In this document: in pieces, positions 22,963 to 58,200 of the stretch
Layout: each line of letters opens with the position of its first letter
How positions within the stretch are numbered: position 1 is the first letter of the stretch
Source of the DNA: Tubiluchus corallicola
Taxonomy: Eukaryota; Priapulida; Priapulimorpha; Priapulimorphida; Tubiluchidae
NCBI GenBank assembly: GCA_030141605.1
Contig: JAQGDQ010000436.1
Span: forward strand, 1 to 64,000
DNA: 64,000 nt
Reading direction: 5' to 3'
Notes under the pieces: generated by a model
Databases searched by the model: none
Told to the model about the DNA's origin: nothing
The model's input: only the letters and a program-made list of their open reading frames with translations
Program-made: the position numbers and the translations under genes

Positions 22963-23075
22963 ATTGCTATTACTTATACTGGATAGTATGATTGCTATTA
23001 CTTATATTGGATAGTATGTTTGCTATTACTTATATTGGATAGTATGTTTGCTATTACTTATATTGGATAGTATGT
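22963..23075. repeat. 28-bp tandem repeat, 4 copies
   Basis: The unit is TTGCTATTACTTATATTGGA plus TAGTATGT, nearly identical in four successive copies. It is intergenic. Confidence 0.95.
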
Positions 23076-25783: not shown

Positions 25784-27667
25784 TAGTGTCTGGTGGTAGA
25801 GTCGGCGTACACTAAGTTGAGGTTAAAATATCCATTTTCCTGTTAATTCTTGCAAACCATAACTACTGGACATATGTTTAAAATGACTTTTGTGACTAAC
25901 AGCAGCCGAATTAATAACTTGTGTCGTATGCAAATTTTCGAAATAGAATGACGAAAGCTCTGTCTGGTTGCAAAAATCTTGTACACAAGCTGGAGTTATA
26001 ATAACAACAGATTAGAATTATGCGGTCTGATAACTGCAATAACGGCACGAAAATGATCAGAAATAATGCAATAATGATGATGACAACAAAATGGTACGCA
26101 GGCCTAAGAGAAGAACAATTTAAACAACATTTTTTTTGCTTTACGCAGGTGTGAAAATTAACATCACTTACTAAAATACGTTTCCCCAGAATCACTCTTG
26201 CATTACTGAATAAATTTTACATATTCATATTACTGAAGCGGACGTAAGTATCGGAAAGGCACATCAAATTAGTTGCAACCTCGTTACGAACCGAAATCAG
26301 GAGTCAAGAGTTAGATAGGGGTCAGGGCCTGGAAGTCGTCTTATTCATGTGCTTCTTTCACAAACAAAAATCAAGAAAATTAAACCACTAAGTTGTTCAA
26401 ATTTCTTGATTTTTACTCTGAATCACACTGTAGACACAACAAAAAGCAGTATTGGTATTTTCAAATGCAGAAGGTCGAGTATTAAGAAATTACCTTAGTA
26501 TAACCCACTACAAACAATCCAACTTTGTGTACCTTACACAGTACTACACCACAAGCACTTATATTTGTCCAGTATTTCAGTTATGTCAATTAATTTTTTT
26601 TACTTGTGACCTAATTTGCATTTTGTATCATGTGACCTTTGCTGTTGGAAGTTGAGTTGACCTTTGATTGACTTTCATGGTTTAATTTACTCAAAAGTAA
26701 TATTTGCCCCCCCCCCGAGAATGTAAAACTATGTCACAAAGATTTTGCATATTGTGTTTTTTGTTCCACGTGTGTGCGCCATTTTTGTTCCAATGGCAAA
26801 ATTCGATTTTATGTGTGACGATCAATTTATAGTTTTAAATAAATCTTTTTGTATTAAATAATTGGAACTTATCCGTGATTGTATTTATAGTATAGTTCTT
26901 AGCGTTTTCCTTTTTATGTGTTGTTTTTATCCTTTTACTCTTAACTTATTATTCACATCAATAATATTTACCTACTATAACAAATTTTAATCCTTACTTG
27001 CTCACTTGTACATACTATTTTAACTTAACTGTAATCTTCAGCTTATGAGAACCATTGGAGCAAAAGGTCCTGAAAGAAAGAAGCATTCTATTTTGAGACT
27101 ATAATTGACATTCAATGTTTTATTCACGTTAAAAGATTGCTTGGTACACTCGACTATGACATCTTAATACTGGAAAAAATTTGCCTGGCAGCAGTAATGG
27201 ATTAACAATAATGGTAATATTACGTCCGCATTGTTGTGAATCCCCGACTTGGATAGCATCTTATCACAGAAAACAACCAAGTGTTCTAAAATAACTTTAC
27301 TTTATTTGCATACAAATGAAATAATGAATGCAGTCATGTTTACTTCTTTGTAAACATCGTTTGTTTTAGAAAAAATAACGAACCTTTTACACAAACATAC
27401 AAAAGACAAGGATGATGTTTATCTCTTTCAGTAAGCTGTACAAACAGCTTTACGTATTAGCCATTCTTTCATTACCTTTCCAGCAGTTTTCATCAGTACT
27501 GAACAGGCATCTTTAGAGAGTACTAATAATGTGTACTAACAGAGGGTACTGCAGTTGCACGACTTAGGCAGTCATACATATAATGATCAAGTTATGAAAA
27601 GTTGCTTCTTGTATTACGGTTTTTGACTGCTTTATACTCCACATTGTAATAAAACTGGCTACACACG

Positions 27668-28375
27668 ACAACTAAACTTTCAAGATGCCAGTAAATCATC
27701 CAACCAGTCTTCTGATTCAGTTGTATCTTTGACAACTAAACTTTCAAGATGCCAGTAAATCATCCAACCAGATTTCTGATTCAGTCGTATCTTTGACAAC
27801 TAAACTTTCAAGATGCCAGTAAATCATCCAACCAGTCTTCTGATTCAGTCGTATCTTTGACAACTAAACTTTCAAGATGCCAGTAAATCATCCAACCAGT
27901 CTTCTGATTCAGTCGCATCTTTGACAACTAAACTTTCAAGATGCCAGCAAATCATCCAACCAGTCTTCTGATTCAATCGTATCTTTGACAACTAAACTTT
28001 CAAGATGCCAGTAAATCATCCAACCAGTCTTCTGATTCAGTCGCATCTTTGACAACTAAACTTTCAAGATGCCAGCAAATCATCCAACCAGTCTTCTGAT
28101 TCAGTCGTATCTTTGACAACTAAACTTTCAAGATGCCAGTAAATCATCCAACCAATCTTCTGATTCAGTTGTATCTTTGACATCTAAACTTTCAAGATGC
28201 CAGTAAATCATCCAACCAGTCTTCTGATTCAGTTGTATCTTTGACAACTAAACTTTCAAGATGCCAGTAAATCATCCAACCAATCTTCTGATTCAGTTGT
28301 ATCTTTGACAACTAAACTTTCAAGATGCCAGTAAATCATCCAACCAGTCTTCTGATTCAGTCGTATCTTTGGCAA
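27668..28375 (-). repeat. 64-bp minisatellite built from the AVEN terminal exon, 11 copies
   Basis: There are eleven head-to-tail units. Read on the minus strand, each unit begins TTG(C/T)CAAAGATACGACTG, contains the C-terminal codons of AVEN (TESEDWLDDLLAS), the TGA stop and ten more bases ending TTTAG. The rightmost unit (from 28375) is the annotated coding exon, preceded by a good acceptor (TATTTGCAG). The other ten lie downstream and would be 3' UTR. Units differ at a few bases, several silent (TTA/TTG Leu, GAC/GAT Asp, ACG/ACA Thr), a few not (Thr to Ala, Thr to Ile, Asp to Ile). The unit is 64 bp, not a multiple of three, but each has its own stop. Confidence 0.95.
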
Positions 28376-31300
28376 CTGCAAATAGATAACTGATTAGCCT
28401 CGTTACTATTCAGTATGGATTAAGCAAAATGGCATCTGTGTAAAAGTGATGCTTATACTAAAACAATCTTTCAAAAACAGAATTTCACTAATTAGTCAAA
28501 ATCAACAAACACAAACAAAAACAACAACAATAAAAGCAATGATAACTACAGCAACAACGACGATGTCGACGACGACAATGACAACAAAAACACAGATTGG
28601 TTAATGATACAAATAAATTGTTAAGTTTATATTTGAAAACAAACAGCCCTGTAAAAAATAAATTTGGCCAACATCAAGATCAAACTGAAATCATCGAATC
28701 AGTAACGTGCGAACATTCCACCTAGTTTGTAGGCCGCTTCGTTCCGTTCTCGAGATTGTACGTTTTTTCTGAGACGCCCGACTGTTTTTTTGCATAGGCC
28801 GTTTGTGAAATTTTTTACAAAATTAGTGTGGGTAGGTTGACTAGGATTAGGAGCTATGAAAATTATATAATATATCTACCTGGTGTGATATAAAAGCAAC
28901 ACACAGAATTAAGGGTGGGCGGCAAAAAGAAAAGTGGAGAGAACTGGCAAGAAAGACAAGTTTGCTTCAAAACTTTATCTACAAAAACATGAGCAGATTT
29001 AATCAAGTTATTATTAGTTTAACAAACACAATCTCACCTGTATTTGATGCTGGTGATTTTGACTGGTGAACAACTGTAGCTCCACTCAACAAATTATCCA
29101 ATTCATCATCTAGTAATTGCTCATCCATCATATCTAAAAGTTCATCGGGTTTCTCTTTTGTTTCTAAAACCTCAACCTTTTGCAAACATAGCTTCTCTTC
29201 CAAAGTCTCTGTGACCTTCTCTATATCAGGTATCCCTGTGGTACCCAGAGCTAATGTCTCACTAGGCTCATTGCAAGTAGGGGTTGTTTTTCTTATTGTC
29301 TCAGCTATTCTTTGCATGTTATCATTGCTCAGAAGCTGGTCAAGTTCACTGTCAATATTCACAGTAGAATGTTTGACAGTGCTGCCATCTACGTCACTTT
29401 TAAAGGCGCTTATTTCAACGTTTCTAATTTCATCAGATAATGGAGGTTGAGGCACGTACGGTGTAGGATTGTAATTCTTTCCGTTTTTCCAAGCTTCTTC
29501 ATCGAGCCTAGCAATCTGGTTAGGCTATTGAACAAAAACATTCATAGTCACTTACAATATTTATTGAAATGAATATTTGAAGGACATGACCCATAAATTT
29601 CCACATACAAATAATGGCCTATGACACACATTTACATTAAATTACTTCCTGGTTAGTGTTGTTGTAAGACTTTTGCAAAAACAGCCGAAAAACATGATCC
29701 ACAAATCACAGGCTTAGTTAAAACACTTAGAAATATTTCAATATTTTGAAAATAATTTTAAAAGAAAACCGGACGATTGTGTAAACATTAGTTCAGAATA
29801 AAGAATGCTCTAAAATATTGAAAACTACAATAGCTTTTTTAAATCAAAACTTAGATTACACAATAATTACCTCAGATACTCAAATGTCTTTAAACTTACA
29901 AAGCTACGCACAGCTCAGTGAATCTACTAAGATTGACAACGGCGCCTTTTTGTCACATGCGTGTGGCCGACAAATAGAACGCGGCACCGTGATAACTATG
30001 ATCATGAACTGCAGTGTTAGTTTCTGATGTCTATATGACATAGAGCTCATTTTAGTTCACTCGTTTCTGATGTCACTCGTTTAAACAGTAATACTTATGC
30101 AAACGTGCTTGACGCGTAAGGGAAGATGCCTGTTATTGCACAAACTGTGGTTAGTTTCTGACATAAGCAATAGATGTGTTCGGCTGCCGTTTAATTAACT
30201 TTCTAAGCTAATTATTAAAATGTAAGAAACAATTACTGACTTTTATAGGCAAGAAAACGTATATTTTGGACAGCAAATTAAAATGAGACTGAGTCTAAAC
30301 AATCATCCGGTTTTCCTTTAATATTTTCTTGTGACCACTGTTGCATTTTAGGCTGGTGAAACTAAACCATTATCACAGTTTCTTGGCCTTCGGTGGCAAC
30401 AATTTAAGCCAGTAATTTTCTTTTTGAAAAAAAAACAAGTATTTTAATATGATAAACTAAAAATACTCTATTTAAATTTGTTAGTATTTTGTTTAAATTT
30501 CTTGATTATGTTAGCAAATAATTATTAATAATACTTGTGTATTTACAAAACTTAAACACTATTTATGTATTCTATTTTTTCTTTTTCTTATCTTATTTAT
30601 TTTAATTTATTTCTCTCGGGCATTAAAGCGGATTATTTTTCGTTTTATACAACCCGCAGACAACATATTGCAAGGCAATACAGGTAAAGCTCACCCAACA
30701 AAATGTAGCAGGACAGGAATCTATGTAAAACGACACACCGCACCTTTCACATATCATAACTGAGAAATAAGGATAGGTATGAAATTCAACCTATCAAATG
30801 CCACTCTTGAACTTAGGATTAAGTTAGGATGAAATTTACATCAAGATTAGTAGATACTTTACCATTGAAAAGTTTTGGTTAAGATTATGTTCCTATTGCA
30901 TTATGTTTTTAAAAAGAACCACACAGAACAATTTTTCTCTGGATTCCCATCAATCAAATTATCATTTAAAGGCAGGGTTGCCGGATTAGAAAATTAGAAA
31001 TATGCGACACTCTTAAAATCTCTCTCTATATTAGTAACAACTTCTAACAACACTAGTTTCCTCTTCATTAAGAGAATATGAGAAAAGAAAGTATAATTAC
31101 TTATAAAGTTACAACTAAGAAGGTAGTAAAAATGTAGTTCTATTACTAAATTTGAAAATGAACTGAATACCAGACATTTGGATGTCCCTGAAAGGTCAGT
31201 ACGGGACAGGGACATCAAATATGGGACATGTCTTGTATATAAGGGAACCCTCTCTAAAGGTTTTTTTCAATGAGACGTAGCTAAAAGACGGAACAATACC

Positions 31301-32608
31301 TCAAGTAGATGCTCTATTTCAAGTCTCTTATAAAGTGGAATTGAGTTCACAGCAGTGGCAAGTTCTTCGATGTCTAATTTCAAGAAACCTTTTGTATCGG
31401 GAGTCGTGGCGAGTTCTTCGTCTGCTTCTTTTTCTTGTTGAAAGCGAAAGTAATCCGACGATGCTTGAAAAATCATGCGACAACTTTAAGAACAATTATA
31501 TTAGTCGAGAGAACAAAACTGTAAAATGCACACATTTGTGTATGATGTTTGTTTAAAACGCATTACACAATACATACTGTGCAACAATAACACAGCAACT
31601 ATGAATTTAACTCTCAAACAAAGTAGGGGGAATGGGGTAATTTGGAACCCATTTTAATTTAAATGATTATTAAACACTTCCTGCTTCCAACGTTAAGTTT
31701 TCTGCTTATAAAACACATAACACCCTCAAGCATAGAGGGTAACCTTCTTGTGGTAATGTTTGTTCATATAAACACTGCAAAATGTTTAGTTTATACAATT
31801 ATATCTATAAAAACGTACGTCAATAATACCTATAAAAACAAATTAATGTAATCTTAACATATCAGTTAAAGAAAGCTGTCAATTCTATAATGGCAAAGTG
31901 TTTGAGAATTTATTTGTATAAAAAATGTATAATAATTTTCTGTGTCAAGTAAGTCGGGTATACTACAATGTTTGTAATCAGAGCTGGCAATTTGAGATTA
32001 GATAAGATTATAACTTCTTAATATAAATTTATTAGACAAAAATATGAAAAAATGGGCCCAAATTGTCACATCTCACCCAATTTAAAATTGGTTATTGGTT
32101 TTACTTCAATAAGTATAATTAGAAGTTTGTGTTGGTAAGTACACTATTTATGGAAACACAAAGTTCAAAAGTACTCATTAAACCAATAACGTACAAAAAG
32201 CATTAAGAGTTATGTTATGTTAGCCTCTTCGGTTTTGCTTCAAATCATTTTAAAAAATGTATGCCACTACTGTAGACTGCTTCCCATTTCAAAAAAAAGT
32301 AAAGAGGAGTTATTAAGATGTTAGAAAAATAATTCTTCATTTTTTGGAAAATGTCACGCAAAATGCCAATCTTGACTTTGTAGTATAAACTAATATAATC
32401 TTATTATATATGCCGGGTTTTTGGCAGGTCACACGATCAACGCCCACTTTTACTTGGATAACTCAAATACGCAAGTACCTGTACCTCCACAATCAATCAG
32501 CGAGCTAAAATCTGCTCCTCTTAAGTGCTGAGATACTTCTTCTGTCGCTTGCTCAAGATCTGGTTTTGTATTATCAATAATTTTTCTTTTTCCATAAAAT
32601 TTCTTCAT
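28320..32608 (-). CDS. AVEN: AVEN-like cell death regulator
   Basis: AVEN binds Bcl-xL and Apaf-1 in vertebrates and also acts in ATM signalling. Exons: 32485-32634 (ATG at 32608), 31300-31463, 29038-29524, 28320-28375 (TGA). Phases match (1,0,1). From that ATG the protein is 276 residues. Family marks are GADFSSLIDCG then SDYFRFQQEKEADEE (human DFSVLLSSAGDSFSQFRFAEEKEWDSE), the ELATAVNSIPLYKRLEIEHL helix, an acidic middle, DDELDNLLSG, and a C-terminal EDWLDDLLAS (human LEDWLDSMIS). The frame is open upstream of the ATG to the acceptor at 32634, so a further 5' exon may add residues. The human RG-rich N-terminus is not seen. A GC-richer stretch at about 33895-34090 with a good minus-strand donor (GTAAGA) may be a non-coding first exon. 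The last exon is the first unit of a tandem array. Confidence 0.8.
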
Positions 32609-32679
32609 CCTGAGGATATCCTGATAAATGGAAGCTGCAAGAAAAATTTATACCAATGTGAAATGTGAAAATACATGCA

Positions 32680-33166
32680 TACTTCAATCACCCGGTTCAT
32701 CTGATTTGAATGGCCAGTCAATGAATCTTACCAACCGGGATCCTAAGCAGGTGTTAACTCTCTACAAAGCTTACGTGCGTCCATTATTAGAACATTCTAG
32801 TGTAGTATGGTCACCATTGTTACAATTTGACATCAAGAGATTGCAGAAAGTTGAAAATAGGTGCCTGCGATTATGTTATGCAGCTGTTTGCATCCTGAGA
32901 TTTGTTCACTCCAAAAAAGGAGAGAAACAGCTGATTTGTACGAGGTATTCAAGAATGTGCAGACAACCGCTTTAGTTGTGATACACTGTTTAAGGCTGCA
33001 CCTCTGCTGTCCACTCGCGGTCATTCTAAGAAACTTATGCAAGAACTAATTGTAAAAGTTAATTTTTTCACACCGCGTAGTGAACAAATGGAACAGTTTG
33101 CCAGAAAGAGTGGTTAGTGCACCGAAATTAAACCTTTTTAAGGAGAGACTGAGGGCTTCACGATAG
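32680..33166 (+). pseudogene. LINE reverse-transcriptase C-terminal fragment
   Basis: It encodes TLYKAYVRPLLEHSSVVWSP and DIKRLQKVENRCLRL, then after frame changes LFKAAPLLSTRGHSKKLM and VVNKWNSLPERVVSAP...NLFKERL and a stop. This order is the classic 3' end of a non-LTR retrotransposon ORF2 (jockey/CR1/RTE-like groups). Frameshifts make it dead. It lies between AVEN exon 32485-32634 and the gene's likely 5' end, on the opposite strand. Confidence 0.85.
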
Positions 33167-34139: not shown

Positions 34140-37100
34140 TGATTATTAACTAAACTCTATTATGTTCCATAAACAACTGATCATCTTTGTAGATATCTAT
34201 AAAAATCACCTATGTAGATATCATTATTGTAATGCTGATTATTAACTAAACTCTATTACTTTGCACACAGCCGGTTTATGTAGTATTTAACGTGTATTGC
34301 TTTGCCAATATACATTGTGTGTATTTTTGCAAATAAAACTGAATTGAATTGAATTATGTTTCATTAACAATTGATCATCTTAGTAGATATCTGTAAAAAT
34401 GACTTTGACAGGTTTTACGTTTGTTTGGCTAAGAATCCATTCCTTGTCCTGGCCTTTGCTTTATTAATAATCGCAAGAAAACATTATCACAATCAGTTCG
34501 ATTATAATTTATTCGCATTTTATTATTAGTACCGTTTTCAACAAATTCATTGCACATCGTACTTACAAGATTACATGACAAATGCACAGCAGCAAACAAT
34601 ATGGAAGCCATAGTAAATCAGAAGTTTTGTTGTATCACAATTTGTAACATACTAATACTAATATTTGCTAAACTATCAGACTTATTTCAACTGTCGACTG
34701 TAACTCTTCAGGCTTTTTAAAGACCTACTCATATGCTATTGTACAGTTCTACATGCACTTTTCATACTGAAATCTGTCATTCGGTGGACATTACAGGCTA
34801 ACAACTACCGAATCATTAAGGCAAATTACACAGAAGCTTTATTTAAACAAACAGAATAAGAATTCAATTTCGAAAATACGAGATTCAGAAAAAGGGGGGC
34901 ATGCTTTGACATCAATGGTATTTGCTCAACAATTTTATGCAAGCAAACTAACAAAATCAAAATGGTAGATCCATTTTAATAGTGTATCAGAGCAGAATGA
35001 CCAACTTCCAGATAAAAAAGAAGAAATAGATCTTGATCATAGTTGCCAATAACAAACATTTGTCAAACAGGCTAATCTTACAGAAGGGAGATTTGTCGAA
35101 ATTTAGCCAAATTCATTTAGGAAGAAGAAATCGCAGATGAGAGATGACCATCGTCACATCAGGTTAATAATTACTTACTTGTGGTTCAAAATATTTTCAT
35201 TCCATTATCAGTAAGTGGGTAATGCAAGAAAGGTTAGAAGTAAAGTTGCCTGGATAAGATTCAGAATATAGACTGCAAAGTGAGACAGTTACCACAGTGA
35301 GAAATTGTTTTCATGCTAGCACAATAACATTCATGATAGCACAATAGCATTCGTGCTAGCATAATAACATTCATGGTAGCACAATAGCATTCGTGCTAGC
35401 ATAATAACATTCGTGGTAACACAATAGCATTTGTGCTAGCATAATAACATTCATGGTAACACAATAGCATTCGTGCTAGCATAATAACATTCGTGGTAAC
35501 ACAATAGCATTCGTGCTAGCATAATAACATTCGTGGTAACACAATAGCATTCGTGCTAGCATAACAACATTCATGCTAGCACAATAATGTGAAAATGCAT
35601 TCCTAACATTAGCATAAAGTCACAAACAGTCTGCGACAGAGGTAGTACAATCAAACTCACTGCAACAACGCATTATGGGATTATGAGACTCAAACATTTT
35701 CAAGGCTTACTATACTGCATACAGAATGTCGTGTGTTTGCAAAAACCTCGCAAAAATTTACAGGTACTTCAAGTAATACGATTACAATTTAATTTATAAC
35801 AAAGCAAAACCATTGGAATACTACAAACTGGTGTAAGAAATGTTAAACTAATAACAGCTCTTTTACTTACTTATTCGCACTAACTCAAATACTATACAAG
35901 TACTGTAAGACAATTACCTACAATTCATGATATGTACGTAAGCTGCAGCATTTTTGTAAAAACTGAACTACATAGCACCAACTTAATTTTAAATAATTAT
36001 TAAGCAAATGAGGCAAATTATGCTATAACACGATTGGCAAACATAACGACAATATTTTGTACAACAAGTTCTATAACAATTTAATACATGTGGATGATTA
36101 GAATACAATCGCACAATAACGAATCCAAAGCGATTGTGTCATACACTTGATTAGAGCGTTTGCACAGTCTAATTATGCTCTTAGCCTACAAGGAAAATGG
36201 TCTTTGCTTTCTTCAGTCACTGCATGCTACATGTTAGGTGAAACAAACAAACAAGAGATACCACACAAACTATAGCTAAGAATAAGGCCTATGACTAGAT
36301 GGTGCATCAATGGAGATTTATCACTATAACACTTTGCTATATTAGATAGGATGAGACATATTACATCATTTTGTGCTACTCTTTTACCTTAAATACCTCA
36401 GATCAGAGTAAAAATACACTAAACACTACAAAATCACACATATATGTTTTTGCTCGTAAATGGGCACTTGCAAGTGAAAAAGCAAATCTATTAAAATGGA
36501 AAGACCAAGGAATGTTATCTACTAAGCATCAGATGTTATTTAAAATAGAAAAATGGTGAAGTGGATAAGTGGTGGATAACGTAATTAAAACAGTAACAAT
36601 GGACATTTTCACAGCCTACAGTAATAACACAGATAAGAATACCGTTGTTACGTTTAACTAGAAGTGGATGTAAATTCCAAATTTTGGGATCGGGGAACGG
36701 TGCTGCAACACTTAGGCTAGTGTAGTCAATTTCATAGCCCGGGTTTGGTATACGTGGCATAAACTTCATTTGGTGACATAATCTTCTCTATATGCTACTG
36801 TCTGAAACGTTAGATCTAATCAAAACAAGTATTTACCACTGATTATAATGTCTATTGATAATTTACGCCTATATTTCACACTACTATTTCCAATTACTAT
36901 ACCAATTTTGAATTTTTTATATATCTGGGGCAAAATAACATGGATACTAAATTATTCTGTTTTTTATCAGCACATTAAATGATCTGGTTACATTAACTTC
37001 AGTCTGCATAAATAACCTATAGTATGCGTGCAAGATCAATAATATTCTTTTTATATATGATGCACTACAATAGTTGTGATCCAAATCCAATGCTCTGGGA

Positions 37101-46200: not shown

Positions 46201-49200
46201 TTTCAGAATTCGGGTGCAAATTTACCAATCTCAAAATGACAAACGATTCGTTACCTTGTTAAGTTTTCATCACCCGTACAGATCCAGAATTGCCGGCGTT
46301 TATTATGACAAACAAGATTAATTGTCTGATAATTTATGCTCAGCTGCAAGAAATGAAACCAATACGTTACTACAGAAAGCCATTCCCTCATATTTCACAG
46401 GATCATATCATAAAGTCTTGCAAATTTCTGAGCTTCTGGTTTGTAAATCTTTGTCACATAAACAAATGTAGGATAAAATTACCAAAACTCATGCTGGCTG
46501 TGGCTAATGATAATCACTTATAACTTACTCGAAGCTCAATGCATTAATTTAATAACCTGGACATGGTCAATGTACAAAGAAGTAATTTTGTTTATGTTAT
46601 GGTATGCCAGAACAAGTCTCTTTACAAATCTGATTTTCTCATTCACCAAAACAAACAAAAAAACTTGAAAACTTGAAACTGTCACTTCTTTCAAGAACTT
46701 ACAACTTGCTAGCCAAATATAATTATGTGTAGAATGTTTGTCAGCAGAGTTTCAGTGAAAATGCAATACAAAACACTGACAATGCTACACAAAATACTGA
46801 AAATGCTACACAAAACACTGACAATGCCATACAAAACACTGACAATGCTACACAAAATACTGACAATGCTACACAAAACACTGACAATGCCATACAAAAC
46901 ACTGACAATGCTACACAAAACACTGACAATGCCATACAAAATACTGACAATGCTACACAAAACACTGACAATGCCATACAAAACACTGACAATGCCATAC
47001 AAAACACTGACAATGCTACACAAAACACTGACAATGCTATACAAAATACTGACAATGCTATAAAAAATACTGACAATGCCATACAAAATACTGACAATGC
47101 AATACAAAATACTGACAATGCTATACAATATAGTGACAATGCCATACAAAACACTGACAATGCTATACAAAGCACTGAGAATGCTATACAAAGCACTGAC
47201 AATGCTATACAAAATGCTGATAATACAATGCAATTTGCTGACAATGCCACTACTTCTTGCTAGTGAAGATGTTACTGACAATTTCTGTCCATGGAAGTTC
47301 TAAGCATTCCTCTAAGCAGTGAACCTTTGTTTATAACAAACTAAGGAGGAGTGGCACATTAGTTTACTATGTCAGTTGTAATACTGAAGATTTACTATAG
47401 TCTACTACAACAGAGTACAATGCTACTTCACTGACATGTGCTACATCAAAATACAAGCTTAGCCAATAGTTTTTCCTGGGCTTCCTTCTCAAACTGTGCA
47501 CTTTTTCTGTGGCAAGACCGGAATGTAGCTCATTATCAAAGCTAATTGTTTAAGAAGGGGACACAGAACTGCATGCATATCAGATGCATATATAATTAAA
47601 CTTTGGTGAGGTGAACAGCCAGAATCAGTATGGCAATGAAACCACCTAAAGCTAGTACTGAGCTCGGCAGTCACTCGTCCATTCATTGACCAGCCTTGAC
47701 AACTAGCCTTGCTTAACCTCAGTAGCTAAATGTACTGTATAACTTCTAGTTTGACTTTGTCCCAGTGTAAGCATATATGCATTACTTATCTAAAATATAA
47801 TTAAATGAACAATATAACATAAGAAAACAAGCCATTTAAATTCGTCAAACGCATCAGCAAAATGCAGTAGTACAACAAAGTGATACAAGTTCTTACCGAG
47901 ATGTAGTCCAGTTCCGTATAGCCCATACTGGCTTCCTTTCTGTATTTACCCGGCTCTAATCCATGCCGTAGAAAATACATGCAGCGATCAGTTAACATGA
48001 GAAAGATTGTTAGCACTTCTCCTTCCGTATGATTTGTAGACGCATGAAACATCTACAAGAAAAATAAAAACAAAATGAAATCATAAATTAATGTTCACAG
48101 CAATAACTTATTATTTAACAACAATATTCCTCAAGAAATAAATTTCATATAGAGGAAACAAATGCGGTGGAAATTCAAACCAGTTCTCCAGGTGAGGCCA
48201 GCAGCTCAAATGACAAAGCAACCCGCCATGTAGACAGGAGATTTTGCATTCGAATTCTGGCTGGCCCACAATTTTTCAGTGCCTCTTTCTTCGAGTGATT
48301 AGCCAATAGCTATTTGTTATAAGCGTGACGTCTTTTTTTAACACATGCTTATATATATATATATATATGTGTATGCATATATACGTTTATTTATATATAC
48401 ATGAATGGAAAAATAAATAGTCGTTGTTAAATTCTATCCTATAACATATTTTCACGTACACCTACCACTTGAGGATTCACAAAAAAGTATTGAAAATGAA
48501 TTATAACAGCTGATCTCAAGAGGAATCAGGGTTTCAGTAACAGTATGACCAATGCTCTACTAAAATACTTAAATGCCAAATTAGCCAAAATGCTGGCACC
48601 TGAAAAACAACAGAATATAGTTTTTTACCGAGTTCACAAAATGTTACTTGACTTTTTATCCAGAAGATGGCAGCACGGGCTCTGCTTTAATGCCTAGCCA
48701 ATGCAAGTATAATTGCCGTTCCTGCCACATAAACAATAGTGATATCAAACAGTTAATAATTAAGATTTACCTACCTTATAAAACTGTTCATTCTGATGTT
48801 CCGCCACGTCCAGCATGGTCAGCAAGAGGGTATTATTGTCCAGTTTTATTTCAGATTCATGGAGAACTCCGGGCCGTTGCGGCTTTTTGATGGCCGTTCT
48901 CTTGTTGGCCAAAACGGGTTGAACTACCGTAGACGTTTTCGTCAGAACGTGCAGGGAATCATTCTCGTAACTCGCCTGCGATTCCGCTTTCGATTCTAAA
49001 CCATCCCCTAATTCGACTATATCACTCGTATCCAACACCGGAACATCGTTCTGAATTTCACATGGATTTTTATTCACGTTATCACAGCTTCGATTTGAAA
49101 AATGCAGATCATACACAGACACTTCGTCATTTGCAAACACCGCCTTCTCTTCGCGAACAATGTCATCGGCATCGAGAGCATTCAACTTAGCTTCGGCATT

Positions 49201-52200: not shown

Positions 52201-55200
52201 AAGCAAAGTCAATTTTGTGGTGCACAGTACTACAGGTAACGAACAATACCTGAGATATTTCACTTTCCATGCTGCACAATGACACCGCATCTTCCACATC
52301 GCTCGCACAGCTGTTTGTGCGCTTTGTGCGAGGTACAGATACGTAACATGATGCTTGCAGATCTAGATATGGTACATCCTGTTAAAAAAAGAAAAACAAT
52401 TACAAAAGTTTTCAGATTTTATTTAAAAATCCTAAATTCTTCAAAGTGGAACTGCCATGCACTCTAAAAGAAGTAAAAATACTTGCATGATGTGACTAGT
52501 TATTTACTAATCACATTCTTTCTATAAAAATGTAGTTAGCTAGAGGATGTGGAGATAATGATGTAGGGGATATTGGCATTATTAATTTTATCAGAATTAA
52601 ACGCTTCCGTAGTGTGACGCCACCTGTCCGAAATTATTAAAATTAACTTAAACTAAGCAAGCAGGTAGGCAGTTAATACCTGATGTTTGGCTATCATGGA
52701 TCTGTAAAATATTTGTCGGAGAGAAATTACATATTAAACGTTAAAAGTCAATTTAAGCTACATATTGAAATTGTCTGAAGTTTTTATTTAATGCAGTTTA
52801 TAGACGAAACTCTTGTACAAAAAATATGCTCATCAAAAACTTGTAACACGGTTTAGCTTAATGTATCATGATTTGTAGCTCACGCAAATAAGTAATATAC
52901 AGAAAAATTCATTAGCTAAAGAACAAACAATTCATGGGTATCAAAGAAAAGTTTAATACCATTATTACTAACATATTACTCACATATTACTCACAATTAC
53001 GTTCTTTATCGTCACCACTATCATCACGATCACCACCATCATCATCTCGTCAACAAGATCATCACCATCACCACTTAGTCATTGCTTTCACGATCTTGAT
53101 CACCTCCATTTTTAATTAATAAACAAATCTAAGACTGCAACTTCAATGGATTTGTGCAAATATCTCAGATTACATACCAAATCAATGGAAAACATGATGA
53201 ATTCTAAGCCAGCAGCCAAGGTGAGCAGCACTTGTAGACACTGAACATCCAGCAGAAGCGCATGTTTGACATAAAACTGTCGGACTAACTTCTCGTTTTG
53301 CATGAAACAACGAACATAGCTTTCCAAATTATTCTCATTTAGTGCCAGATACAACCAGGCTCGTCCTACACAGAGAAAATGCAGATTATAAATGCTAGCA
53401 AAAACAAATACATAGATCTATTTTATTGTTGACGAACCAAAGTTTAAATGAGCTAAATAATTGCTTAGCAACCGGGAGATCTTAACTTCAACTTGTGTCT
53501 GGAAGAATTCACAGTTTTTACGCAGTCAAATGGTTTTTTTCTTTCAAACAATAGTCACTAAAATCTTTTAACTTGCACTTATGATATATTTACAAAGATA
53601 GTCAGCTAGTGTGTATTTAAAAACCAGTTTGATACTAAAACTCTGATTTAAGTAGAATTTATACATGTAAAACCTGAAAATACAATACTACACATCTGCA
53701 ACCATTTAAGCATGGTTCGAATATGAAAACCTATAGTGAAATTTCGGGTATTGCCGAACATTCAAATTTTGAAGTACGTTTCAAAGTCCCCTAGACACAA
53801 ATTAAACGATTAAACTTTTTTTGCAAGCATGTGACATAACATTACAATGAAGACAAAAATTAAATATGAGTTGAGGTAAGAGTAGGCTTTAATTTATAAG
53901 GATGCACCTAACAGACTGATGCAAAATTCAGTCAGTTTACTGCTGACCAAAAAGAGAGGTTTCCACAAAAGACTAGAATAATTCTGAGCAATGGAATAGT
54001 TTACTAAAGCTGTTTAAGAATAACTAATTTGCATTTTAAGTCTACACATGTGTTTAAAAAAAGAACTTAATCAATTTCACTAGCCATGCTGATAGAAAGT
54101 ATGAGCTGGCTAATAATTGTTAGACCGGTTAATCGATTTGGGTTTTGGGTTGTAATTATTGACTTTTTTCAGCTGCCATGTCAATTGTGTAATGGACACC
54201 AATTTCAAAAAGTTGCAGAAAACAGGTAAAACAGGATGTATAGCCATAAAATAACTAGCATGAAGAAATGCACCCATAAAATAAAGTAACAATCGATGAC
54301 GTAAAACAACTATTGAATAGGTTACGTATCCGATTGATTAATTAATGCAAAATAACTGATGCTGTCATTTATCAGCAATCATTTAAATGAAACCATTTGC
54401 TCTTTTTAATATACCTCGTCCAATGTCTGTCAGCACGCGTGGCAAACTTGAGATCATTTTAACGTCTTCCTTGTGAGTGAATTCCTTCACCATAGACCAG
54501 TATCCTCGGCTAACGTGACGTAATCTGAAACAGTAAAAGAAATTAAAGAAAGTGAGCAAGATATAACAACAGAACAGCTGCAAAAATTGCGGCAACAGTC
54601 GACAAAGGAAACATAGAGGTGGTCCTAGAAATTTTATGAAAGTCATATTATTATACAGCCTCATAAAATTTTGGTAGCTACGTATTTGTTGCAAGATGTG
54701 AAAAAACGGTACTTTCAAAGTCTAATACTTCTTGAATTATTTTTTACACATATGTCAAGTTATCTTACAATTCATAGTATTATTTTGTTACACATATGTC
54801 AAGCTATCTTACAATTCATAGTACTATTTTCTTACATATATGTCAAGCTATCTTACAGTTCATAGTATTATTTTCTTACACATATGTCAAGCTATCTTAC
54901 AATTCATAGATTTAATGTACGCGGCACACAATAATATATACAGCTTATGCACAATTTACAATCAGTTATCAGTAAAAAGAAAGAAGCCTCCCATCAAGAC
55001 ATAATAACAGTCTTGCATCTTTCCTATTCACTGTTTTTACTGGCACAGAAATCGCTGAGTTGTAAACAGTTAGAACTGTGAAATGGCATCTCCTAGTAGC
55101 TACACACCTCCCTTCAACTTCTCTGATTTGCTTACTGTTGTCTAGGATTACATACTAAAACTACGTGCTGATATTTTGTTTCCAAATAATCACACTGGGT

Positions 55201-58200
55201 AAACCAAATGAGGCGTTAAATAGAATCTGCCAACTGGTCAAGCCATTGGGCTCCAGTGTCCAGCAGAAGGGATGCCCTTATGAAAACACTGACACTTTCA
55301 TTCACGAAAATTTGAACCGATGTAAAAACTATTTTTTTTCTTAATCTGTTGCTGACGAGTTACTGGCATAAAATTTAGTTATCTCTAGGAATTTAAACGT
55401 TTTTTATACAATTTGGTATTCTAAAAGCTACAATTCAACACTTAGCAACAAAGGCTAGTTAATGATTGTTTGTGGCAAAACTGAATTTCGCTCAAAATCA
55501 AGGATAAGTACCTAAGATGAGATACTGAACAGACAGAAAGTGTCCTTTAGTCACGTACGGCTATTATACTTGCATCATCTGCAGTATCGTTTGACTTAAT
55601 GGCTGATATAATATATATATATAGGATAGACTACGGCCAAATCACGTTGAAGACACCGCTTCTCGTCTGATCACCGAAGTTAAGCAACATAGAGCCTGGT
55701 TAGTACTTGGGTGGGTGACCGCCTAGGAATACCAGGTGCTCTAGGCTTGCGGGATGCTCACACTGTATCTCGGCACTAGGCGGAGCAGCTGCACAAGCAG
55801 CCAACGGCTAGAGGGCGGAGGAGGTCAAGTGACCCAACGGAGTAAACCTTCCAAATCAGGAGTGGAGCCCCAAAGGCGGACCAATGCAGCATGCTCACTG
55901 ACTCCTGCAGCTGACCTGGTGCCAAACGTATCACTCCACTTTCCTTTGAACTACACGAGGGAGGAAGAGAGGGGGTTCCTGTTGTCTGGGCAACTCAGGA
56001 TATCCATACACCTTGCCCAGGCGTGCACCCTGGAGACGTTCAAGGATCGCACTGCTCAGCCACAGTCGACGCTGCAGCTCCATCAATGTGATCAATAACT
56101 GACTCTCGTGGCGCACACTCCATTGTCTTCCGAGACAGAAGGATGCCAACCATTATATATTATATATCGGATATATATCCATAAAAGACTATGATGACGG
56201 CATCGATGAAGACAGCGGTGACGATAAGATAAGAATATTATGATGATCTTTATAACAAGCAAATTTAAAAGACTGTATTTGTTCAAATGCAAAAGCACAG
56301 ATGCCATGACTCCCACATTTCAGACAGAAGATTAAAAAGGAGTGGTTTATTTTTTTCAAGTTGTTTTTTTACTTGGCTTTACTTACAAGATAAATTCACG
56401 GTTGCTATAACATCAGTCGAGTTGAAACTAAATCTTTCTGACACGTCATTTACTTTCTAAACAGAGGAAATTTAAACTAAACAAATGTACGCACTAGAAA
56501 CATTACTCCCTGCCTTTCTCTACATTAACTTTCTATTTGTAATGCCACTATATTATTTTTAATAGACGCAGAAAATAAATATGCTACAGTCTGGTTTCAA
56601 AACATTGTAAATTTGAAAATGCGGCAGAAATTGTTAAAGCAACGGTATAGTGAGAAAGCGAAACAGATACCTAGTCTAAAAATACAACTTTGTGAAATCG
56701 TTACTAAGTCAACTTTATCCTCTCACATAGCAAGAGATCAACAGTAACAATCACAAAATTGACCTTGACTTTTTGGTTAATTGACATTTGGCTTTTTAAC
56801 ATCAATCATTCTGCTACGAATGAGGTAGGCCTTGAATGATAAAGCATGATATTTTTTTGCTATATTAAATTAAACAGCTCAACTGTCAAATTTAAGCTGG
56901 TTAAAAGCTAAACGTTTGGTACTGAAGTTTTTGACAGTGTGAAGCAGAAAATGGAACATGCTGATCCAAAATATGTTTGGATTTTAATAAATTTAACTAT
57001 AAGGATTAGTGTTTAATGAAGATGCTAATGAGTTACCCTGTTACTATGACCTTTGACCTCAAAAAGAAAGCAGTTCCAACAACAATTCTACTGTGTGTGT
57101 TAAAAACAATGCTTTTATCAAAGCTGGATCAACTTCCACTGTTCCTACCAATTGTTTTTGACCGTGTTGTGGACATGCGAACAGAACAGACACACGGCTA
57201 CAAATATAAAAGCCATAGCCTAGCTTCTGGTACCAGCTAGAACTGCCTCTAGATTCTAGAAACAACAGCAATGCTTAAGGCATTAAAAGCTTCAAATGCC
57301 CTAGGCCATCTGTCCTCTGGCTACAGTCTGAACTTGCAGTTCTGTTAAATGAAGCCAGATTTAGTGCACAAATGCCCAGCAATCAAGGTTTACTCAGCTG
57401 AAGCCATTTGACACAGAAGGAGAATAGGCGATTAAGTCAAAAACAGCATAGAACTAGTGAACGCTTTTGACTGTGTCAAAAACTATGGTAATACCGATTC
57501 TGCTTCTGTTTTATATTCTCAAATAAAAATGTTTTTCAGAATGATTAACAGTACGTATGTATGTGCTGTTGTCTTGACATTACAAATTTCAGTGAAATCA
57601 GAACTTGTCACTTGTGCGTGGGTTTTAGGTTAAGGCTCTGAAGATTATAATGTTGCCTCCGCTGAATTCGCCATACTGGATGGCGTAGGAATTGCATTTC
57701 AGTTTCATAGTGAAATCTGAACTTCCAATTTGTTTCTAGCCAACAACCAGTCACCCATCTACTTATTAACTAAGTCCTGGGTTGCTTTTTTTTCGCAACC
57801 AAGCCACAACGACCACATAACTTCCCAAGATAACAGTAAATTCCAGGAAGTAGAAAAATAATGAATTTTGCTATCAATAGAATATTCAGAGTCAAACCAA
57901 TTTTAAGGAAAATACAAATTACATAATTTTGTAGAAACCACAAAACCTGGCAAAAGCATTTTGCCTGAAAAGCAACATGTTTGAAATGACAATCAGACAA
58001 AAATTTAAATTAAAATGATGAAATGACTATGTGTTTTGTTTTTCTTACGTATAAAAACACATTGTATATTCGGTTACAAAGTTAAGCAACAGTGGGTCTG
58101 GTTATCATTACCAAACGAATGAGTCTCAAACCTATGTAACTAAAATGTTCTATACTTTCACGTAATAAAATGTTCTGTACTTTCATGTAATAAAATGTTC

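Follow-up and report, generated by a model that had tools for sequence, protein, structure and literature searches.

The window, a stretch of 64,000 nucleotides of the priapulid Tubiluchus corallicola (contig JAQGDQ010000436.1, positions 1 to 64,000), carries on its minus strand a predicted AVEN-like gene that runs into an array of tandem repeats (Table 1). Joined together, three upstream exons and the first unit of the array give one uninterrupted reading frame (284 residues), and every inferred junction has its AG and GT. The exon at 29524-29038 ends in AATACAG in front of its GTGAG donor, and its in-frame join to unit 1 after TTTGCAG gives a product that terminates in SNTVAKDTTESEDWLDDLLAS and a stop. 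In this gene model the last coding exon is formed by unit 1. For the identity of the gene, a fragment of human AVEN served as the reference. Against this fragment blastp returned E = 4e-11 over a 91-column segment in the front part, and the Smith-Waterman score was 126, the maximum in 500 shuffles being 68. In a MAFFT alignment with the human fragment, EDWLDDLLAS was placed on EDWLDSMIS, which aligned the EDWLD C-terminus. Judged against this fragment, the predicted product thus has the similarity expected of the AVEN family, including the acidic EDWLD end. A Pfam search of the product revealed no significant family and a PDB sequence search no significant match. A filter for an arginine-glycine-rich first exon upstream of 32634 retained nothing resembling AVEN, its sole hit being an unrelated open frame (54721-54385). 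Among viral contigs a search for AVEN relatives produced 15 matches by pattern, and none was confirmed.

Table 1. Features of the AVEN-like gene and its repeat array (window positions).
Feature	Position	Strand	Basis
AVEN-like coding exon (SIYQDILRMKKFYGKRKIIDN...), not the first of the gene	32485..32634	-	open frame from AG to GT; similar to human AVEN FSKRKIVSN...
AVEN-like coding exon (ASSDYFRFQQEKEADEE...)	31300..31463	-	open frame and protein similarity
AVEN-like penultimate coding exon; donor GTGAG from 29037	29038..29524	-	open frame and protein search
Last intron, 662 bp, ending CTAATCAGTTATCTATTTGCAG	28376..29037	-	gene model
AGTTGCC, upstream half of the microhomology between the array edges, spanning the real acceptor AG	28371..28377	-	edge comparison
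Unit 1: 56 bp of the final coding exon up to and including TGA, then AAGTTTAG; presumably the copy in use	28312..28375	-	gene model and array anatomy
Units 2-11: ten more 64-bp copies, putative 3' UTR	27672..28311	-	TRF and unit anatomy
TTGTC remnant; with the preceding AG, downstream half of the same microhomology (AGTTGYC)	27667..27671	-	edge comparison
AATAAA, first canonical poly(A) signal past the array, followed by a GT-rich stretch	27301..27306	-	hexamer search

The array occupies 28377-27667 of the minus strand and consists of 11 copies of a 64-bp unit followed by a 5-base remnant. TRF reported it as one array at 27667-28377 (period 64, 11.1 copies, 96% matches, 0% indels, score 1317), and a second repeat finder gave a start-to-start spacing of 64 all along. 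This confirms the 11 copies of 64 bp that the first-pass annotation had described from the sequence. Its start has to be corrected to 28377, since the homology takes in the acceptor AG. That annotation had also equated the unit with the whole last exon plus ten bases ending in TTTAG. The whole exon was borne out, and the tail was not: each unit comprises 56 bp of coding sequence including the TGA and then 8 bases, AAGTTTAG, and stop and tail are kept in all 11 units. Pairwise, the units differ at 0-5 of the 64 positions, with 9 of the 64 columns variable. A head-to-tail array of similar units of this length is a minisatellite, for which units of about 10-100 bp are usual. The array DNA matched one place in the 343.5-Mb assembly, in a search that scored the best candidates. 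The predicted protein matched nine places, all at the AVEN-like locus, again among the best candidates scored. Dispersed or paralogous copies were considered and rejected, as within this scope DNA and protein both point to one locus only.

The edges of the array bear on its origin. Compared with unit 1, the final 64 bases of the intron are identical at only 18 of 64 positions; what is shared at the edge is the AG. Beyond unit 11 the shared stretch is TTGTC, so that the array is bounded by AGTTGCC and AGTTGTC. These edges form a 7-bp match with one mismatch (AGTTGYC), which would be compatible with slippage and does not prove it. Pairs of 7-mers 64 bp apart agreeing at 6 or more of 7 positions amount to 164 of 60284 (0.27%) in the window outside the listed arrays, or 178 of 63009 when the AVEN array alone is left out. 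At position 4 a C is found in unit 1 alone, and a T in units 2-11 and the remnant; this fits a first junction whose left end derives from the downstream AGTTGTC. Because the homology ends at the acceptor AG, the branch point and pyrimidine tract of the intron were left uncopied. With the surroundings of the acceptor unduplicated, the AG before units 2-11 derives from the post-stop AAGTTTAG (its TTTAG). An RNA-mediated origin, as a tandem cDNA of the exon, is unnecessary given the microhomology at the edges. Later growth may have left a trace as well. Units two apart differ at 16 positions, the mean in shuffled order being 21.6 (P = 0.022, one of four lags tested); at lags 1, 3 and 4 the likeness of units was not above that in shuffled order (P = 0.55, 0.98 and 0.91). 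Duplications of two units at a time (5-6 to 7-8) are plausible but weakly supported by this.

Arrays of this kind are common in the genome. With a period of 40-200 bp and at least 3 copies, 12 were counted in 195,847 bases (about 61 per Mb), nine of them in 14 sampled stretches (131,847 bases) and three in the window. With periods of 10-200 and at least 3 copies there were 20 in the 131,847 sampled bases and seven in the window. If 15,000-30,000 genes are assumed and selection is ignored, chance alone would place one given edge of 4.6-9.2 arrays genome-wide no more than 2 bp from the acceptor of a last exon. In a genome so rich in minisatellites a few such coincidences of array and acceptor are expected, and a tandem duplication extending beyond the stop would be mild, the first copy staying whole. 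Other minisatellites of the window lie at 35310-35587 (period 40), 46756-47214 (21), 54736-54909 (44) and 22964-23075 (28), and large arrays were seen in the sampled stretches L006 (1101-3151, period 180, 11.4 copies) and L011 (1-1098, period 49, 22.4 copies).

Inside the array none of the hexamers AATAAA, ATTAAA, AGTAAA and TATAAA is present. Downstream of it, a further AATAAA occurs at 27124 and weaker variants at 27636 (TATAAA) and 27344 (AGTAAA). As the nearest AATAAA lies beyond the array, the copies are probably transcribed as 3' UTR, and on this sequence evidence units 2-11 are probably 3' UTR. The units were also compared as potential coding sequence. Nine distinct changes from the consensus were found, of which three are synonymous, six nonsynonymous and none at the stop; two of the nine lie side by side in unit 10 and could reflect a single event. 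Under random change 22-32% would be synonymous, the probability of at least three being 0.32-0.60 and that of no change at the stop 0.36-0.46. The units thus give no sign of coding constraint, in a comparison to which nine changes lend little power. The count of synonymous against nonsynonymous differences had been proposed by the first-pass annotation, which named a random substitution pattern, together with exclusive use of the 28375 acceptor in RNA, as the outcome that would reduce the array to an ordinary minisatellite; as far as nine differences show, the count fits the neutral expectation and a random pattern. Constraint on the last 20 columns, which are invariant, was rejected as a separate candidate: the naive P is 0.026, but for such a run anywhere in the unit P = 0.34.

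The same annotation had proposed that the downstream units could serve as replacement last exons with the same C-terminus. Some pre-mRNAs would then be spliced from 29038 to the AG before one of units 2-11, giving a nearly identical protein end and a shorter 3' UTR and buffering the gene against damage to its acceptor. Part of this was upheld by the anatomy of the units, as an AG precedes every downstream unit and an open frame leads from it to the same stop. Moreover, a branch-point-like TTTAC lies about 21 bases ahead of the AG at 8 of the 10 internal junctions, half of the internal units encode a peptide one residue off that of unit 1, and the IFI6 minisatellite is cited as a source of multiple splice donors (in the citing text of PMC4526556). 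TTTAC is no strong guide, however, because it is missing within 45 bases of the acceptor inferred for exon 29524, and the signals of the intron itself were not copied. Scored with an approximate matrix and expressed as percentiles among the 7238 AGs of the window, the internal AGs are middling (54.9th, and 64.8th before unit 4). On the same approximate matrix the real acceptor is at the 84.3rd percentile and the other inferred acceptors of the gene are at 80.1, 81.7 and 92.1. The exact peptide of unit 1 is encoded by none of the ten internal units. If spliced in frame, units 2, 3, 5, 9 and 11 would give V-VKDTTESEDWLDDLLAS, an A-to-V exchange; units 4, 6, 7, 8 and 10 depart further, and unit 10 turns the ED-WLD motif into EI-WLD. 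Synonymous differences are not in excess either, and in amphioxus RT-PCR suggested that comparable repeats leave regular splicing undisturbed (PMC3087553). With the acceptor region uncopied, the internal AGs middling, no exact peptide and neutral differences, the proposal of spare last exons was not sustained. It is unsupported by the sequence, and use of the internal acceptors is very unlikely. That the units act as low-level backup exons, making the AVEN end robust to acceptor mutation and the 3' UTR variable in length among transcripts or individuals, has a slighter chance still.

Comparably slight is the chance that the repeat-bearing 3' UTR acts as a regulatory element in its own right, apart from spare exons, through RNA structure, binding of proteins or microRNAs, or length-dependent expression. 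The copies do sit where a 3' UTR is expected, ahead of the first AATAAA, and the columns on the stop side are all invariant. Yet marked RNA structure was not found in units 2-4, the folding of which is barely above that of shuffles (z = -1.27, 21 of 200 shuffles being as good), and no Rfam family was detected in that region. An array, or a copy number, created by the assembler would be in keeping with the frequent mis-sizing of short tandem repeats and with the use of a single assembly. This is nonetheless extremely improbable, since nine columns vary, the order of the units is not that of one block copied over and over, the locus is single among the candidates scored in the assembly and many other arrays exist there.

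The reading preferred here, to which a probability of about 0.88 is given, is that the final exon of an AVEN-like gene houses a minisatellite, the surplus copies of which lie unused beyond the stop. A short last coding exon would by chance have been flanked by two direct 7-bp repeats that match imperfectly, AGTTGCC at the acceptor and, 64 bp further on in the 3' UTR, AGTTGTC. The first duplication may have arisen when the two were misaligned, through slippage or during repair, and more slippage or else unequal exchange may then have enlarged the array. The branch point and acceptor of the intron would have stayed with unit 1, which would be spliced normally, its own stop ending translation. 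Units 2-11 would be carried untranslated in the 3' UTR, with no function resting on their coding content. The mechanism of origin, exclusive use of the acceptor at 28375 and polyadenylation past the array are what we infer. A minisatellite could in this way begin exactly at a splice acceptor, hold a complete terminal coding exon and spare the protein, which is unharmed because the first copy already has a stop. The earlier statement that a change in copy number would leave the protein end intact likewise follows from the anatomy, unit 1 having a stop of its own.

Exact-word matching in the open-licence PMC literature retrieved no paper in which a complete terminal coding exon, stop included, forms the unit of a minisatellite, and nothing useful on AVEN. 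Related arrangements have been described. The amphioxus 'mirages' are minisatellite-like tandem duplications of exon-intron boundaries, which the relevant sections of PMC3087553 report for Adh3 and the globins BflGb6 and BflGb9. In BflGb6 the mirage takes in the last part of an intron together with the beginning of exon 2; the two haplotypes carry 6 and 3 units, and RT-PCR suggested that splicing is regular (PMC3087553). Like the mirages as presented there, the AVEN array is a tandem repeat at an exon edge, with copies that carry an AG or GT plus exon sequence; the mirage copies are apparently unused in splicing, and those of AVEN may be as well. Unlike them, it shares only the AG with the intron, covers the whole terminal coding exon and the stop, and has its copies downstream in the presumed 3' UTR. 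A mirage unit spans the exon-intron boundary and includes intron sequence. With 18 of 64 matches and a common AG only, the AVEN unit does not, and although the array would work like a mirage it was filed as an exonic minisatellite.

The minisatellite of IFI6 (6-16), which is reported to provide multiple splice donors (Turri et al., 1995, as cited in PMC4526556), is likewise a case in which the edge of an exon gains several candidate splice sites. It differs in that donors rather than acceptors are multiplied and in that, according to the citing paper, downstream units are used in the mRNA and give rise to isoforms (PMC4526556). Duplicates of exon 4 of a metallothionein gene in the Lumbricus rubellus BAC clone Lr6F14 are described as absent from the final transcript (PMC12783039). 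The earthworm case concerns another gene, with tandem exon duplications and inversions and, in the text that treats this clone, no regular 64-bp array through the stop (PMC12783039). Intron gain by tandem genomic duplication shares the exonic tandem duplication that creates potential splice sites but, in the model as outlined in PMC3443670, needs AGGT as donor and acceptor; no intron would have formed in the AVEN array.

As things stand, the main value of the locus may be a warning for annotation, as 64-bp 'exons' may be called several times at the AVEN array. Should internal units be used, the locus would be a natural test of acceptor choice among near-identical exons.

Against an AVEN exon, on the opposite strand, an open frame beginning YKAYVRPLLEHSSVVWSPLL lies at 32628-32975 of the plus strand. 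It may resemble the terminal part of a reverse transcriptase from a non-LTR retrotransposon; Pfam returned for it a sub-threshold Tcp11 match alone (17.7 bits, cut-off 27). Elsewhere in the window a 5S rRNA gene is predicted on the plus strand at 55629-55747, with a full-length match to RF00001 at 90.8 bits.
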